Both the position numbers and the translations under genes were made by a program. 41,946 nucleotides of DNA from a virus, in IMG/VR virus record IMGVR_UViG_3300048589_001579, positions 1 through 41,946 of that record. One strand, written 5' to 3'. This document shows, in pieces, positions 19,509 to 41,946 of this stretch; position 1 is the stretch's first letter, and every line of letters begins with the position of its first letter. The notes below the pieces were generated by a model. It was not told the origin of the DNA, made no database searches, and saw nothing but the letters and a program-made list of their open reading frames with translations.

Positions 19509-22124
19509 ATGGCCACGATCAGCACGAGCCAGACGTTCGACTCGGCCGCGCGCACGGCCGGGGAGGCGTTCACGATCAACTCGGGCGCCGTCTTCACCAT
19601 CGACTCGGATACCCGGGACGGAAAGAACGCCGCGGCATCGCGCGCCGGCTCGATGAGCAGCTTCACGATGACCGCCGCGTCGGGCGGCGAGGTTGTGATC
19701 GACGGCACCGGCGTGTGGCTCATCGCCTACGACGGCCGCATCGGCACGCCGAACGTGCCGGCGCTGGGCACGATCATCGCCGGCGTCACGTCGGGCGCGA
19801 CCGGCGAGCTGATGAACTGCACGTCGGCCATCAACGCGACGCCCACCGCCGCCGGCGCCGCGATGCCGGCGACCGGCTACTTCAAGCTGAAGGGCGTCTC
19901 CGGGACGTTCCAGGACAACGAGACGCTCGAGATCCAGGGCTCGACCGACCTGTGCCTGGCCAACGGGGTCGGCCAGCGCGGCTGGATCGAGGTCGTCATG
20001 GACGACGCGGCGACCTGGACGATCGGTCGCGCACAGAAGCTGACCATCAACGGCGACTGGTACGTCTCCCCGACGACCGGCTCCGGGTCGGCCCATCAAC
20101 AGGTCCAGTTCCCCAACTACGGGGGCGCGAACTTCTTCCTTCCGGGCGTGTGGGTCGACGAGGCCGCGAACGGTACCTGGGAGTTCTGGCCGGCGTGCAT
20201 CACCGGCACGGGAACGTTCTGGTCGGCGTCGCACATGGGCACCGACGAGCGCAGCAAGTTCTGCGAGTGCCTCGGCGGCGGCATCATTCGATTCGGCGGC
20301 AACGGCACGACGGCCTGGGGGAAGATCCCCACCAGCGGGGCGCTGTTCCGTGTGCCCAACGTCTTCCTGAAGTCGGCCGCCACAGCCTCGCGCGCGTCCG
20401 ATTCAGTGCCCAACGGCACGCTGGCGACGCGCCCCGACTTCACGATGACGAACGCCGGGCAGCTCGACGTCGACGGCGCCATCGGGCACTGGTACATCAA
20501 CTCCGGTCAGGCCTACTCGGTCAAGCTGCACAACCTGGCGCTGTTCGATTCACTGACGATCACCGAGACGGCCTCGGCGCTCGACCTGAACGGTGTGGGC
20601 ATGGGCAACTACATCATCGCCCGGGACTCCGCCAGCGTCACACTCACCTCCAACTTCGCCGGCGGCACGATCCAGAATTGCAAGTTCGGCCGCACCGGCA
20701 CCATCGCCTCGGCGGACTACGGCACAAACGTCCAGTTCTGCAACGACCTGACCTTCACCGGCTGCTTCTTCGCGAACCGGACCTTCCGCACCAACGCGGG
20801 CGCTCACCCGTTCTATGCCGCGTACTGCGACGGGCTGACGTTCAACGACTGCGTCGTCGTCGGTGGCTCGATCTACCTGCTGGCGTGCACAGACACGACG
20901 CTCAACGACACGCTGTACGCGGACAGCCACCACACCACGTCGAGTTCGACGACCCCGCCTGTTGGCGTGATCCAGCTCATCAACGGCACGCTGGACACGC
21001 TGATCGACGGGTTCGGCTGGTACACCTCGGTCGCCAACGTGCACCCGGACACGGCGGTCCTGTACCTGTCGGCGGCCTACGGGGTGAAGGTGCGCAACAT
21101 CGGCACCTACGCCTCGCCGCTCTCGGCCGGGTCGAGTAACGCTATGCTGTATTTCTGCAACGACGCGGGCAACTCTCAGCGGCTGCAATTTCAGCGCATC
21201 TTCTTCAACCTGATCGCGACCACCTTCTACAACGCGGTCAATTCGACGAAGGGCGTGCTGCTGGAAAACTGCGAGGGCAACACGTCGGCCTACAAAGCGC
21301 TCGTCTCGGCCGCGCTCGACCAGATCGTCAAGAACTGCGGGCTCCTCAGCATCGCGCCGGGGTCCACGGCGTCGATCTACGGCTCGGCGTTCTACCACCA
21401 CTTCACCAGCTCGACCGCGGGCCGGCTCGGGCTGAAATTCTCCGAGCCCACGGCGGCCTATGCGCCGTGGGTGACAACCAGCTTCACGACCAGCTCGACC
21501 GGGACGTCGGGCTTCAACTCGTCGCAGGGTCTGGCGCTCATCAACTCGGGCGACTACGCCATCTTCGAGTGGCCTCACGCGATCGCCGGCATCGACAGCT
21601 TCCAGAACTCCGCGCCGACCGTCACCACCAGCACGAACATGACAGTCGAGTACCAGATCGACACCGGCGCCGGCTACGGGGGCACGTGGAAGACGTTCAA
21701 CGCCACCAACCTATCCGGCGAGACGGTGGACGAGACCGCCGGCTTCAACTTCAAGATCAAGGTCTCGGCCAACGCCACCAACGCGGCGAACATCCTGACC
21801 GAGGTCTATTGCCTGACCAGCAGCAACACGACGGCGCAGGCTATCCAGTACCCGCTCGATTTGGCCACGGTCGAACTCACGAACCTGGTCTCCGGCTCCG
21901 ACATCGTGATCCTGTCCGCCGGCACCGAGACGGTCATCGAGAGCACCGACGCCACGGGCGCGACGAGCTTCAGCACGTCGATCGACGCGGCCACCTACTC
22001 GTCGATCGACGTCTGCATCTACCAGGCCGGCTACATCCCCTACATCCTGCGCAATCTGACACTCACGGCAGCCGGGCTGTCGCTGCCGATGAACCAGGTG
22101 GCGGACCCGAGCTACCTCACGTAA
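19509..22124 (+). CDS. Large virion protein with beta-helix-like repeats
   Basis: 871 residues, rich in Gly, Ser, Thr and Asn and poor in charge. The middle shows short strand-turn repeats typical of a right-handed beta-helix (NDLTFTGCFFANRTFRTN, CDGLTFNDCVVVGGSIYLL, TLIDGFGWYTSVANV), as in phage spikes and decorations. The C-terminal third looks like beta domains and ends VADPSYLT. It sits in the head module between portal and protease, which is unusual for a tail spike; a head fibre or large decoration protein is more likely. No Shine-Dalgarno is evident before ATG 19509. Confidence 0.65.
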   Translation: MATISTSQTFDSAARTAGEAFTINSGAVFTIDSDTRDGKNAAASRAGSMSSFTMTAASGGEVVIDGTGVWLIAYDGRIGTPNVPALGTIIAGVTSGATGELMNCTSAINATPTAAGAAMPATGYFKLKGVSGTFQDNETLEIQGSTDLCLANGVGQRGWIEVVMDDAATWTIGRAQKLTINGDWYVSPTTGSGSAHQQVQFPNYGGANFFLPGVWVDEAANGTWEFWPACITGTGTFWSASHMGTDERSKFCECLGGGIIRFGGNGTTAWGKIPTSGALFRVPNVFLKSAATASRASDSVPNGTLATRPDFTMTNAGQLDVDGAIGHWYINSGQAYSVKLHNLALFDSLTITETASALDLNGVGMGNYIIARDSASVTLTSNFAGGTIQNCKFGRTGTIASADYGTNVQFCNDLTFTGCFFANRTFRTNAGAHPFYAAYCDGLTFNDCVVVGGSIYLLACTDTTLNDTLYADSHHTTSSSTTPPVGVIQLINGTLDTLIDGFGWYTSVANVHPDTAVLYLSAAYGVKVRNIGTYASPLSAGSSNAMLYFCNDAGNSQRLQFQRIFFNLIATTFYNAVNSTKGVLLENCEGNTSAYKALVSAALDQIVKNCGLLSIAPGSTASIYGSAFYHHFTSSTAGRLGLKFSEPTAAYAPWVTTSFTTSSTGTSGFNSSQGLALINSGDYAIFEWPHAIAGIDSFQNSAPTVTTSTNMTVEYQIDTGAGYGGTWKTFNATNLSGETVDETAGFNFKIKVSANATNAANILTEVYCLTSSNTTAQAIQYPLDLATVELTNLVSGSDIVILSAGTETVIESTDATGATSFSTSIDAATYSSIDVCIYQAGYIPYILRNLTLTAAGLSLPMNQVADPSYLT

Positions 22125-22136
22125 GGAACACCGACC

Positions 22137-23768
22137 ATGATGATCACCGATCCTGACCTGCTGGCGGTCGGCACCGAGATCACGCTCGACACCGGCGCGC
22201 GCACCTTCACCTTGGTCGAGGCGGGTGACCTGGTCGCCAAGGACGGCGTGGACGCGAACGCGCTGTGGTCGTTCTTCGTGGATATCTGGGCGACGGCGAC
22301 CTACCAGCCGTATCCGTTCCCGATGAACAAGATCGACAACCGCTCCGGCCAGTACATCTTCGGCCGCGACCCGGGCGGCAACTACAACGGCTGGAAGCCG
22401 GCGACCGACGCGACGCGGCAAATGATCCGGAACGGTGGCTGGCGCGAGTATTCCGGCGCCGGGGTGCTCAACCGCGAATATTTCTGCGCGGTGCTGCAGG
22501 GCTCGGCGCCCGCGGCGTGCCAGGCGTACTACCTGCGCAAGACCGTCGCGTCGGGCGGCACACCGATCGACTACACGTTCGACGACTTGCCGAACGAGGC
22601 CGTCCAGGTCTACGGGGACGCGAGCAACGGCAACTTCGACGACCGCGCCTTCTTCAAGTCGTTCGTCCGCGAGTACCAGTACACCTACGACGACGCGAGC
22701 CTGACGGACATCAGCGAGACCGCGACCGGGCCCTACAAGCTGCCGTTCGGCATGTCGTCCTCGCTCGATCTCAAGGTCACTGCGAACGATGCGACGGTGG
22801 CGGCCAATTCGCCCTACACGAAGATCGGCGTCAAGTATTTTTCCGGCGCGTTCACGAAGGCCGTCGAGTCCGGCACCGGCCGCAACTTCGGCATCGTCGT
22901 CGACGCGGGCACGCACTCGGGCATCGACGGCAGTATGAGCGCGGGGCTCAGCACGCTGACCAGCGCCGCGGCGGGCATCACCGGGGCCGACTTCGCCGGC
23001 GGCACGCTCAAGGTGCACGAGGGCACGAACAAGGGCACCTACACGATCAGCGGCACGCCGACCGGCAGTGTCGTGACGATCACCACCACCTTCGCCGCGA
23101 CGGAATCGAGCAGCAGCTTCACTCTCTACCCGGCCGCCGCGCTCGGCGCCTCGCTGGCCGAGATCTACACCAAGATCCAGTACCTGCTGCGCCAGAACAG
23201 CGACATCGATGGCACCGGCGGCACGGTGACCGGGAAGACGGCCGACCTGCTGCTCAACTTCGTCGGCGACTCGCTCAAGTGCGGCCTCTACGCGCCGACC
23301 AACCCGAACGGCGGCGGCACCGGCGTGATCGTCGAGGGCATCGCCGACGCCGACCTGAACAGTATCGTCTTCTACGACAACACCGCGGCGAGCCGCGAGT
23401 ACCCCTACGCCTCGGCCGGCACCTTCAGCTTCAATGCGCCCCTCACGTCCGGCGGGACGGGGTACTACAAGCTCTACTACACCACGACGCCCGGCGGCGA
23501 CGACTTCGGCGAGGGCACGGCCATCGTCGTGAACGACAAGGACGGCAACCCGATTCAGGGCACCATCTCGGGCGCCTCGATCAGCTTCTCGTTCGACTAC
23601 ACCAACAACACGCAGGGCGGCTACTCCGGCAGCACGAATCGCGACGTGACGCTCGTCTGGGGCAACCCGAACAGCGCGAAGCCGGGCATCTCGACGGGGA
23701 CGATCACCCAGTCGAAGGCGATCACGATCGCCGCTGTGGCCGAAGTCGACCCGAGCTACGTCGCCTGA
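22137..23768 (+). CDS. Virion structural protein
   Basis: 543 residues from ATG 22137-22139, with AAGGA upstream. The N-terminal 180 residues (LWSFFVDIWATATYQPYPFP, then TRQMIRNGGWREYSGAGVLN, EAVQVYGDASNGNFDDRAFF) are a pattern I associate with structural proteins in several tailed phages. The rest is beta-rich with probable immunoglobulin-like or capping domains. It ends EVDPSYVA, echoing the VADPSYLT end of the previous gene. Probably assembled on the head. Confidence 0.65.
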   Translation: MMITDPDLLAVGTEITLDTGARTFTLVEAGDLVAKDGVDANALWSFFVDIWATATYQPYPFPMNKIDNRSGQYIFGRDPGGNYNGWKPATDATRQMIRNGGWREYSGAGVLNREYFCAVLQGSAPAACQAYYLRKTVASGGTPIDYTFDDLPNEAVQVYGDASNGNFDDRAFFKSFVREYQYTYDDASLTDISETATGPYKLPFGMSSSLDLKVTANDATVAANSPYTKIGVKYFSGAFTKAVESGTGRNFGIVVDAGTHSGIDGSMSAGLSTLTSAAAGITGADFAGGTLKVHEGTNKGTYTISGTPTGSVVTITTTFAATESSSSFTLYPAAALGASLAEIYTKIQYLLRQNSDIDGTGGTVTGKTADLLLNFVGDSLKCGLYAPTNPNGGGTGVIVEGIADADLNSIVFYDNTAASREYPYASAGTFSFNAPLTSGGTGYYKLYYTTTPGGDDFGEGTAIVVNDKDGNPIQGTISGASISFSFDYTNNTQGGYSGSTNRDVTLVWGNPNSAKPGISTGTITQSKAITIAAVAEVDPSYVA

Positions 23769-23774
23769 CCTGTC

Positions 23775-24305
23775 ATGGAAACGTGGAAACAAGTTGCCGG
23801 GTTTGAAGGCCGGTACGAGGTTTCTTCGTTGGGGAGTGTTCGGTCGTTGCTGACTCACGACAGCCGAGGGCAACGGCGAACACCTGGCGTACTGGCCGCG
23901 TGCGCTGAAATGAGGCGCGGGCGGGTGAGTAGACTGCGCGTCACCCTCATGGGAGAGGCTAACGTCAGGCACCACAAGAAGGTCCACGAACTTGTCGCGA
24001 TGGCATTTTTAGGCGCTCGACCCGCCGACGCGGTGGTGCGGCATTTGGATGGCGACGCCAAGAACAACGCGGTATGGAACTTGGCCTACGGGAGCCACAA
24101 GGACAACATGAAAGACGCCGTGCGGCACGGCACAACCACGCGAGGAGAGGCGAACCACAAAGCCATAGTGACTGCTGAGGTTGTCAAATCACTTCGCCAG
24201 ATGGAGTGGAGGCGCGGCGAACAAGTGGCGGCGGCGAAGACCATCGGCATATCCGCGGCGACGCTCAACTGCATCCTGAAGCGGAGGACGTGGGCGTGGC
24301 TATAG
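23775..24305 (+). CDS. HNH homing endonuclease with NUMOD4 domain
   Basis: 176 residues. N-terminal NUMOD4 (WKQVAGFEGRYEVSSLGSVR), then an HNH nuclease core: VHELVAMAFLG with His71, RHLDGDAKNNAVWNLAYG with the later Asn and His, and SHKDNMKDAVRHG. The C-terminal part is a helix-turn-helix (EQVAAAKTIGISAATLNCIL) that likely reads the target. It lies between two structural genes, six bases after one and overlapping the next, as expected of a freestanding homing gene. Its GC content is lower than its neighbours. Confidence 0.9.
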   Translation: METWKQVAGFEGRYEVSSLGSVRSLLTHDSRGQRRTPGVLAACAEMRRGRVSRLRVTLMGEANVRHHKKVHELVAMAFLGARPADAVVRHLDGDAKNNAVWNLAYGSHKDNMKDAVRHGTTTRGEANHKAIVTAEVVKSLRQMEWRRGEQVAAAKTIGISAATLNCILKRRTWAWL

Positions 24306-39315: not shown

Positions 39316-40100
39316 TCCCGAACCCCGCAGCTCTCGGCTCCGGTGGTGGCGGGACGTGGACGCTCACGATCTCGGCCAACGCGGCGAACGTCAACCTCAA
39401 GACCGAGCTGGAGGCGCTCTACGGCTCGATGTCGAGCGCGGTCGTCGCGGTCGTGACGATCAACAGCGGCGTCGAGATTTCGTGCGCCACCGGGTCCGGG
39501 TACCCGGCGATGGAGACCGGCACGAGCTGGCCCTCCGGCTCGACGCTGAAGATCGTCAACTACGGGAAGATCAGAGGCGCTGGCGGCGATGGCGCGGGTC
39601 CGGGTATTTCAGGTTGGCACGGTGGCGACGCACTCTCGCTCGGGATCAGCGTCACCATCGACAACACGAGCGTCGGCAACATCTTCGGGGGCGGTGGCGG
39701 TGGCGGGCAAGGTGGTCAGATCACGTCCCACTCTGGCGAAGTCGGCGGTGGCGGTGGCGGTGGTGGACAGGGTGACAATGGTGGCGGTGGTGGAGCCCAC
39801 GCGACGGCAGGCATCACTTACCCCGGCGAAAACGGGTACGCAGGAGCCGAAACCTACTACGGGGAGGGCGGCAATGGCGGCGTCAACAGCTCGGGAAGCT
39901 ACATCGGTGGCAAGGGCGGATACGGTGGCGGATGGGGCACCGCCGGGACCAGCGGCTACTCCGCGACGGTCGGAGGCGTGCCCGGCGGTGGCGGGGCGAC
40001 AGTCGGTGGCGCGGCAGGCAAAGCTATCGACAAGAACGGCAAGACCGTGACGTGGATCGCCGGGAACAACGCGACGCAGGTGAAGGGGGCCGTCTCGTGA
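39312..40100 (+). CDS. Second glycine-rich tail adhesin
   Basis: 262 residues from GTG 39312-39314 (GTGA overlap). N-terminal beta region WTLTISANAANVNLKTEL, then a long glycine tract (NIFGGGGGGGQGGQ, GGGGGGGGQGDNGGGGG) and an end GKAIDKNGKTVTWIAG typical of phage glycine-rich adhesins. Different from the first adhesin outside the Gly regions. It may give a second receptor specificity. Confidence 0.75.
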   Translation: MIPNPAALGSGGGGTWTLTISANAANVNLKTELEALYGSMSSAVVAVVTINSGVEISCATGSGYPAMETGTSWPSGSTLKIVNYGKIRGAGGDGAGPGISGWHGGDALSLGISVTIDNTSVGNIFGGGGGGGQGGQITSHSGEVGGGGGGGGQGDNGGGGGAHATAGITYPGENGYAGAETYYGEGGNGGVNSSGSYIGGKGGYGGGWGTAGTSGYSATVGGVPGGGGATVGGAAGKAIDKNGKTVTWIAGNNATQVKGAVS

Positions 40101-40432
40101 ACGAGGAAATGGCCTGGGACGGCGTCGACCGCCGCATGGCGCGCGGCGACCGGTGGCACGTCGGCAAGGAGGTGCCGCTCGCACTGCTTGTGGCGGTCAT
40201 GATCCAGACCGGCGGCGGGATCTGGTGGCTCGCCCAACTTAGCGCGAAGATCGACTCCGCGATCGTCACGCTGTCCGAATTCCGGGTCGAGCGCTACACG
40301 CGCGAGGACGCGCGCCGCGACCGCGAGCTCGTCATCACGCTCCTCGAGCAGCACAAGCAGCGCGCCGCCGAGATCGAGCGCCGCACCGCCGTGATCGAGT
40401 CGGCGATCGAGACCTTGAAGCGGGCACGCTGA
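40097..40432 (+). CDS. Membrane-anchored coiled-coil protein of the lysis cassette
   Basis: 111 residues from GTG 40097-40099. A short charged N-terminus (DGVDRRMARGDRWHVGKEV) is followed by one transmembrane helix at about 28-48 (PLALLVAVMIQTGGGIWWLA) and a long coiled coil (TREDARRDRELVITLLEQHK, AAEIERRTAVIESAIETL). It could act as an inner-membrane spanin or holin partner; the fused endolysin follows immediately (TGATG). The exact role is not decided by sequence. Confidence 0.6.
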   Translation: MNEEMAWDGVDRRMARGDRWHVGKEVPLALLVAVMIQTGGGIWWLAQLSAKIDSAIVTLSEFRVERYTREDARRDRELVITLLEQHKQRAAEIERRTAVIESAIETLKRAR

Positions 40433-41580
40433 TGCGCATCACGCGCCGCGAAGCCGAAGACGCGCTCGCCCTGGCGAACGTCCAGGCGTTCCTGCGCGTC
40501 GTGCGGCAGGGGGAATCGTCGCAGGGCGACGAGGCGTACCGGATGCGGTGGCCGGGCCTCGGGAAGCCCACGGCGTACTTCGACGACTTCGCGCAGCACC
40601 CGCGGATGTTCGAGCCGACGACGGGCGGGCGCGTGTCGAGCGCGGCAGGCGCGTACCAGATCACCGCGACGACCTACGACGACTTCGCGCCGGGCCTCGG
40701 GATCGGCGACTTCACACCGCCGGCGCAGGACGCGATCGCGGTCGCCATCATCGCCAGCGAGGGCGCGCTTGCGCCGCTGCTCGCCGGGAGGTTCGACGAG
40801 GCTGTGATCCTGTGCCGCGGCAGGTGGACGAGCCTGCCGGGTGCCGAGGAAAACAATCCACGATGGACGCTCGCGAAGGCGCGCGCGTTGTACGCGAGCT
40901 ATGGCGGCACCTTCGCCGCGTCCGACACTCAACCCGCGGCCCCGATCGAGGACCGCAGCACGCGCCACCAGGAGACCGCCATGCCGCTCCCGATCCTCGC
41001 CCTGATCTCGACCTTCGGGCCGCTGATCGCTCAAATGATCCCGCAGGTCGCGAAGCTCTTCGCGAAGCCGGACAGCCCGACCGCGACGCGCAACGTCGAG
41101 GCGATCCAGCTCGTGTTCGACACGATCCAGAAGGCGACCGCCGCGCCGAACCTGCAGGCGGCCGTCGAGGCGATGGCCAGCGATCCGTCGGCGAAGGCCG
41201 CGGCCCAGCAGGCGGTCGTCACCGAGCCGGCGATCATGGCGGTCCTCGAGATCGGCGCCGACGGCATCAAGGCGGCGCGCGAGATGAACCTCGCGATCGC
41301 GCAGTCCGACAAGCCGCTCTACAAGAACCCGGCGATCGTGATCGCGTTCGTGATGCTGCCGCTCGTCTACATCGTCACGCTGTCGGTGCTGCTCGCCGGC
41401 GACGGCGGCTACTGGGGCGGCTTCTGGGGGCCGGGCTTCATGCCCGAGACCAGGAGCGCGACCGTCAACCTGATCCTCGGGATGGTGCTGGGCGGGATCA
41501 TGGGCTTCTTCTTCGGCACCACGTTCGGCAGCGGCCGCAAGACCGACCTGCTCGCCGGGCACACCGACACCAAACCCTGA
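40432..41580 (+). CDS. GH104 endolysin fused to a holin-like membrane domain
   Basis: 382 residues. Residues 1-160 match the lambda R lytic transglycosylase family GH104: catalytic-type Glu28 in VRQGESSQGDEAY, HPRMFEPTTGG, SSAAGAYQITATTYDDF, WTSLPGAEENNPRWTLAKAR and ASYGGTF. After a Pro/Thr/Arg linker, residues about 184-382 form a membrane domain: amphipathic PLPILALISTFGPLIAQMIP, helical middle, then two transmembrane spans around AIVIAFVMLPLVYIVTLSVL and NLILGMVLGGIMGFFFG. Normally these would be separate genes. A strong internal site at 40970-40983 could express the membrane part alone. Confidence 0.85.
   Translation: MRITRREAEDALALANVQAFLRVVRQGESSQGDEAYRMRWPGLGKPTAYFDDFAQHPRMFEPTTGGRVSSAAGAYQITATTYDDFAPGLGIGDFTPPAQDAIAVAIIASEGALAPLLAGRFDEAVILCRGRWTSLPGAEENNPRWTLAKARALYASYGGTFAASDTQPAAPIEDRSTRHQETAMPLPILALISTFGPLIAQMIPQVAKLFAKPDSPTATRNVEAIQLVFDTIQKATAAPNLQAAVEAMASDPSAKAAAQQAVVTEPAIMAVLEIGADGIKAAREMNLAIAQSDKPLYKNPAIVIAFVMLPLVYIVTLSVLLAGDGGYWGGFWGPGFMPETRSATVNLILGMVLGGIMGFFFGTTFGSGRKTDLLAGHTDTKP
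40970..40983 (+). promoter_or_regulatory. Internal ribosome-binding site and start for the holin-like part
   Basis: AGGAG at 40970-40974, six bases, ATG at 40981-40983, codon 184 of the fusion. This spacing and strength look like a genuine gene start and would give a 199-residue membrane protein. Confidence 0.65.
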
Positions 41581-41592
41581 CAGGAGATCAAC

Positions 41593-41946
41593 ATGGGCAG
41601 CGGATACACGGGCAAGAAGGTGCAGCACGGCACGGGCGCGGTGGAGCGCTACACCGGGCCGTCGATCAACATCAGCAGCCTGCCGCTCGACCTGCAATAC
41701 GCGGTGTGCCGGTACGCGGCGAAGTTCACCTACGGCCGCGACGCGGTCCGCGGCGTCTTCGGCAACGCGGTGAAGACCGGGCCCGCGGAGACGGTCGGCA
41801 GCGTCAATTCGATGATCAACCTGGGCGGGATGGTCGGCGCTCGCCCCGAGGAGGCCGCAGCGTTCGAGGCCGAGCACCCCGAGTGGGCGGCGACGGTCAA
41901 GGCCTACGTCGACTGGGCGCGCGGCCGCACGCCGGCAAGGCGCTGA
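41593..41946 (+). CDS. Last gene of the window, unknown
   Basis: 117 residues from ATG 41593-41595 with GGAG eight bases upstream. SSLPLDLQYAVCRYAAKFTY, GRDAVRGVFGNAVKTGPAE and PEEAAAFEAEHPEWAATVKA suggest a soluble helical protein; the N-terminus has GSGYTGKKVQHGTG. No family recognised. It follows the lysis genes by 12 bases, so it is probably co-transcribed. The window ends at its stop codon, and no attachment site or tRNA repeat follows. Confidence 0.65.
   Translation: MGSGYTGKKVQHGTGAVERYTGPSINISSLPLDLQYAVCRYAAKFTYGRDAVRGVFGNAVKTGPAETVGSVNSMINLGGMVGARPEEAAAFEAEHPEWAATVKAYVDWARGRTPARR

Follow-up and report, generated by a model that had tools for sequence, protein, structure and literature searches.

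A single gene in the viral DNA analyzed here (IMG/VR record IMGVR_UViG_3300048589_001579, 41,946 nucleotides, hereafter ‘the window’) is probably a dual-start lysis module, from which a membrane-tethered endolysin and a free holin-like protein would both be translated. The presence of the two products in cells, their topology, the holin activity, and the role of the module in lysis timing are all predicted from sequence. Holin and endolysin normally have a gene each, which allows the enzyme to remain cytoplasmic up to the moment when the holin opens the membrane; a family that conserves their joining, while retaining a separate start for the membrane part, implies another way of holding and releasing the enzyme. 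Descriptions of endolysins with internal starts come mainly from phages of Gram-positive hosts; the family presented here is found in betaproteobacterial prophages and environmental viruses, and its predicted short product is a membrane protein.

The gene lies on the plus strand at 40432–41580 and runs from ATG to TGA as one open frame encoding 382 amino acids, with no stop between its enzyme and membrane parts. The original prediction that a GH104 endolysin passes into a membrane domain without a stop was borne out, and so was the internal initiation signal proposed at 40970–40983: AGGAG occupies 40970–40974 and an in-frame ATG 40981–40983, with a spacing of 6 nt. A second IMG/VR record (L002), which may come from a related sample, is 100% identical to the window over 4149 bp, junction included. 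The features discussed below are, in window coordinates:

40097–40432, plus strand: upstream gene of 111 aa with a GTG start, one transmembrane (TM) segment near the N-terminus, and then a charged helical tail (sequence, ORF list).
40432–41580, plus strand: fused lysis gene, whose full-length product of 382 aa is a predicted membrane-tethered endolysin (open frame; conserved in 36 clusters at 60% identity).
40459–40920, plus strand: GH104/lambda R lysozyme (lytic transglycosylase) domain, aa 10–163 (1am7, PHROG 90, invariant Glu28; AF2 pLDDT ~85–98 over the domain).
40921–40980, plus strand: linker of 20 aa, aa 164–183 (AF2 confidence low at 176–186).
40970–40974, plus strand: internal Shine–Dalgarno (SD) sequence AGGAG, within the Q-E codons of the coding frame (sequence; kept across the family while the amino acids vary).
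40981–41580, plus strand: predicted free product from the internal ATG, a 199-aa holin-like membrane protein (junction start codon in the family; PHROG 1544 homology, E 8.8e-9).
40993–41061, plus strand: N-terminal hydrophobic/amphipathic helix of the membrane domain, aa 188–210 (AF2 helix; nearly no charge in the first 16 residues).
41335–41391, plus strand: TM segment 2, aa 302–320 (hydropathy; AF2 helix 300–321).
41458–41514, plus strand: TM segment 3, aa 343–361, followed by a basic tail (hydropathy; charge pattern over 34 clusters).

The joining of the two parts characterizes a whole family. When the membrane domain alone served as the key, so that the scan was unbiased towards fusion, 42 loci with 39 distinct ORFs were recovered, 38 of them fused in frame to a muralytic domain. 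Clustered at 60% identity, the fused family comprises 36 groups, all but one in frame, with linkers of 4–64 aa rich in Pro, Ala, Thr, and Glu; an alignment of the enzyme part also found many single ORFs in virus contigs carrying both enzyme and membrane domain. The exception is L300 (L300:2400–3500), where a GH19 frame is offset by one base and overlaps the ATG of the membrane domain, which may reflect a natural split or an assembly error. Fused copies are present in the bacterial genomes of Acidovorax sp. sif1233, Acidovorax sp. Leaf160, and Azohydromonas lata. The window itself is known from environmental assemblies only, a circumstance that could point to a sequencing or assembly error, or to a stop codon lost once in this virus; the identical second record and the in-frame fusions in many independent contigs, those isolate genomes included, rule out an error and leave this explanation with practically no probability. 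The fused gene looks like a widespread one-gene lysis module, conserved in dozens of related viruses, rather than a chance stop loss.

The family was detected only with alignments as queries. Used as the sole query, the window protein missed it: a search of genome contigs found nothing, GenBank phages gave no match to the C-terminal domain, and there was no match in 50 terminase relatives. Similarly, tblastn with four query domains against 50,697 GenBank phage records returned no family member, suggesting that isolated phages have hardly sampled the module; the membrane domain was absent from plasmids searched with one query, and a class-level genome sample yielded no further members. In a Burkholderiales sample, strong matches occurred in 3/399 genomes (~1%), each within a long open frame and only one of them new, making the module rare per genome. 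Matches on Bradyrhizobium and Rhizobium plasmids were rejected as family members, being only GH104 domains within larger proteins.

Taken singly, the internal SD of the window gene (−7.4 kcal/mol) is unremarkable, since 3/18 other in-frame ATG/GTG codons are preceded by one as strong; its significance comes only from comparison across the family. All 58 family members that were scored have a start codon at the junction (55 ATG, two GTG, and one called TTG, in L128, which has an ATG a few codons upstream). An SD core, counted at −16 to −5 relative to the start, precedes the junction codon in 34 of the 36 clusters (at 60% identity) versus 71 of 549 other in-frame ATG/GTG codons. Against a null in which the upstream residues were recoded with synonymous codons, the mean SD energy at the junction was −7.62 kcal/mol observed versus −5.97 expected (z −4.3, 36 clusters); at control sites (other in-frame starts and random positions), the observed value was −3.3 versus −3.6, i.e., weaker than the null by ~0.3. 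Nor is the internal SD weaker than the best candidate SD of the first start (−7.4 versus −6.1, in 21 genes). It is weak in L136, L288, and L302, and L301 has none; two further members, L213 and L285, lack a start at the usual place, yet possess a start with SD upstream within the linker. These codon-level comparisons show that selection acts on the internal SD across the family. The claim that one frame gives two products is thus well supported on comparative grounds, start and SD being conserved over 36 divergent clusters and favored at synonymous sites.

Were only the full-length fusion made, the internal Met and SD would be a remnant of a formerly separate gene, or would follow from conservation of the linker end (K/Q-E-x-x-M) at the protein level. 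The encoded amino acids by themselves would indeed account for the SD strength of most genes viewed singly, and the standalone relatives described below have a separate, often overlapping start. We nevertheless regard this reading as unlikely: across clusters, the SD exceeds the synonymous null while control sites fall below theirs, SD-like cores persist although the residues encoding them differ (QE, KE, RS, ER, EA, EG, PE), L213 and L285 keep both start and SD elsewhere in the linker, and a remnant should have decayed over such divergence.

The N-terminal part of the 382-aa protein matches lambda lysozyme R (1am7) with an E-value of 1.5e-13, and its best PHROG match is PHROG 90, ‘endolysin’ (E 4.6e-25); PHROG 17230 (tail fibre/lysozyme) is matched as well. 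Glu28 (codon 40513–40515), which we take to correspond to lambda R Glu19, is invariant in 34 aligned fused proteins. By homology over the catalytic domain and the conserved Glu, this part is a lambda R-like GH104 lysozyme.

Other members carry different enzymes. Four unrelated types are joined to the membrane domain: GH104 in most cases, GH24 (PF00959, E 1e-42), GH19 (PF00182, E 2.5e-4, below the family cut-off), and, in L098, an SLT/baseplate-hub-like enzyme (PF01464, E 1e-3, also below cut-off; PHROG 196, E 3e-46). The Pfam scan covered one GH24 and one GH19 member, and the other enzyme labels were assigned by sequence reading. On the best tree of the membrane domain, the enzyme label changes 12 times, with at least four changes forced by well-supported branches (midpoint root, bootstrap incompletely settled); for instance, L157 (GH104) pairs with L305 (GH24) with a support of 100/99. 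By these labels and branches, unrelated enzymes are shown to have been exchanged repeatedly at the junction. Without selection, the frame would be kept in about one-third of exchanges, and it is nearly always open, which argues for selection on the joined product.

The membrane domain (residues 184–382) contains two clear hydrophobic segments by hydropathy (302–320 and 343–361) and a weaker one (182–200) just after the internal start. The first 16 residues of its initial helix hold no charged residue in 23 of 36 clusters and one in 12 of 36. Over 34 clusters, basic residues lie before TM2 and in the tail, and the loop is slightly acidic, a pattern that suggests a membrane hairpin with both ends inside (N-in/C-in). 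The domain matches the PHROG 1544 profile (E 8.8e-9) over residues 11–188 of 199, as do 27 of 42 family members. Among the curated holin families of Pfam and NCBIfam, none is matched at cut-off by the window protein or its C-terminal domain; a structure search with the AF2 model of the membrane domain (pLDDT 81.5) gave no significant fold match, only weak ones to VHML ORF20 and a GTA 3TM holin (prob 0.10), and an isolated weak match to PHROG 1299, ‘holin’, concerned one family member. Holin-like traits are nevertheless present, in that the domain is a small membrane protein with TM segments whose standalone homologues adjoin endolysin genes. The free 199-aa product is related to PHROG 1544 and most likely of the holin type. 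It could alternatively be an antiholin or anchor, given the missing curated holin or fold match and the small one-TM gene upstream in many cassettes.

Relatives in which the two parts are separate genes, as called for in the original prediction, exist as distant homologues: PHROG 1544 proteins, annotated as of unknown function, are encoded by standalone genes and align with the membrane domain with an hhalign probability of 98% (E 7e-14). They share its amphipathic start, helical middle, two TMs, and GSxxGSxRKT-like tail; unlike the window domain, which is fused in frame, they are separate genes that often overlap or abut an endolysin gene. Endolysin genes of several types, recognized by sequence and motif reading, neighbor them: the standalone gene lies downstream of the endolysin in L100, L101, L107, L112, L117, and L119, and upstream in L091, L092, L093, and L118. 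Since these distant relatives mostly adjoin endolysin genes, the membrane part belongs with lysis. The standalone proteins make up a clade of their own, separate from that of the fused ones (support 98/94). An origin by loss of a single ancestral stop, as first proposed, finds no support if meant as a recent or local event, because the fusion is common to a whole clade separate from the standalone one and unrelated enzymes have been swapped with the frame open. The likeliest history, read from the tree with its root unproven, is one ancient joining of neighboring, often overlapping genes, in which the downstream ribosome-binding site was retained, followed by enzyme swaps.

The same neighbors bear on whether the gene belongs to the lysis cassette at all. 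A role as virion or tail lysozyme, with the hydrophobic segments serving as anchor, would fit the PHROG 17230 match, the resemblance of the L098 enzyme to baseplate-hub domains, and the position of the fused gene after tail genes. It is very improbable given that the best match is an endolysin family, that the GH24 and GH19 partners are typical endolysins, and that standalone homologues of the membrane domain flank endolysin genes.

In the dual-start reading, ribosomes starting at 40432 would make the 382-aa protein, a GH104 endolysin followed by a flexible linker and anchored in the inner membrane by its C-terminal hairpin, while those starting at the internal AGGAG–ATG (40981) would make the 199-aa membrane protein alone. 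With an N-in/C-in hairpin, the enzyme would stay on the cytoplasmic side; the tethered form would be held at the membrane and, once mixed oligomers open that membrane, reach peptidoglycan. In the free product, the first helix begins with almost no charge and could cross the membrane, whereas a folded enzyme of 183 residues on that helix probably blocks the crossing. The long form may delay triggering, as lambda S107 restrains S105, with the short form acting as effector. A broader version, which we put forward tentatively and hold to fall short of probable, is a plug-in lysis gene whose membrane module with embedded ribosome-binding site accepts unrelated endolysins, the long form serving as enzyme reservoir and antiholin, the short form as holin, and the ratio of starts setting the timing. 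With such a module, the dependence of lysis time on the proportion of long and short product could be tested directly.

The 111-aa gene just upstream (40097–40432) could shift these roles. Its stop overlaps the start of the fused gene (TGATG), its product weakly matches PHROG 19911 (annotated as function unknown), and it is a candidate pinholin, XhlA-like protein, or spanin-type accessory. Were it the pinholin, the fused protein would be a LysAP-type, membrane-anchored endolysin, and the C-terminal part made alone would serve as anchor, antiholin, or regulator. In phage AP1 of Acidovorax, the gene order is the same: the gene for HolAP, a 111-aa one-TM protein, immediately precedes that for LysAP, an endolysin that requires its one C-terminal TM for lysis (PMC8879335); small one-TM genes also precede the fused gene in many relatives examined, and the C-terminal domain has no holin family match. 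However, BLAST of HolAP and LysAP against the window genes gave no meaningful match, the upstream TM genes are not the same in all relatives, with none present or detected in several, and the standalone homologues of the membrane domain resemble holins in being small membrane proteins paired with endolysins. We consider this arrangement possible, though somewhat doubtful. Another possible lysis component is a protein of 161 aa that combines an N-terminal TM with a large, periplasmic-looking domain (L098:1907–2392); it recurs in L284 and L243, encoded upstream of the fused gene either directly or at a short distance.

Several other features of the window were recorded. Directly after the lysis gene, a 117-aa gene (41593–41943) has AGGAG shortly before its ATG and no Pfam or PHROG match. 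At the left end, the minus strand of 1–2496 encodes a serine recombinase and an excisionase-like ORF, which indicates a temperate phage. The L002 record stops at the stop codon of the fused gene and the window ends, 1 and 41946, coincide with stop codons; thus, both look like proviruses trimmed at gene ends, and the window record lacks the true attachment site and whatever followed 41946. An HNH/NUMOD-type homing endonuclease gene lies among the tail genes (23775–24305), and the head–tail region (19509–23768) includes two long genes (871 and 543 aa) with no PHROG match.

In the open literature, outside which most subscription papers fall, we found no description of an N-terminal endolysin joined to a holin-like module at the C-terminus that has an internal start of its own; its elements have separate parallels, the nearest published ones being LysAP, the TpeE fusion, and the two-polypeptide endolysins with internal starts. 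In phage lambda, two starts in one frame yield the membrane proteins S105 and S107, whose N-termini differ by two residues. The dual start is alike, but in the window the extension is a whole enzyme, not two residues, and the systems are likened by their starts rather than by sequence. Lambda R is soluble and encoded apart from the holin gene; the window enzyme shares its domain (1am7) and catalytic Glu but is joined to a membrane domain. LysAP (GH24-like, PMC8879335) is likewise anchored by a C-terminal membrane segment and preceded by a small one-TM gene, but it has a single TM and a separate holin, no PHROG 1544 domain was seen in it, and its junction has no internal SD-start. The TpeE-family fusion of Clostridium sporogenes (PMC9527704) also unites a holin-type protein and an endolysin in one polypeptide, but in the opposite order, holin first, with a small TpeE-type holin and no internal start described. 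Comparable in its use of starts is the arrangement of the endolysins CTP1L and phi2638A from phages of Gram-positive bacteria, where one gene has two in-frame starts and a shared stop (PMC9430671); the authors of that work thought internal starts unlikely in endolysins from phages of Gram-negative bacteria. Their short product is a cell-wall-binding domain, whereas that of the window gene would be a membrane protein.
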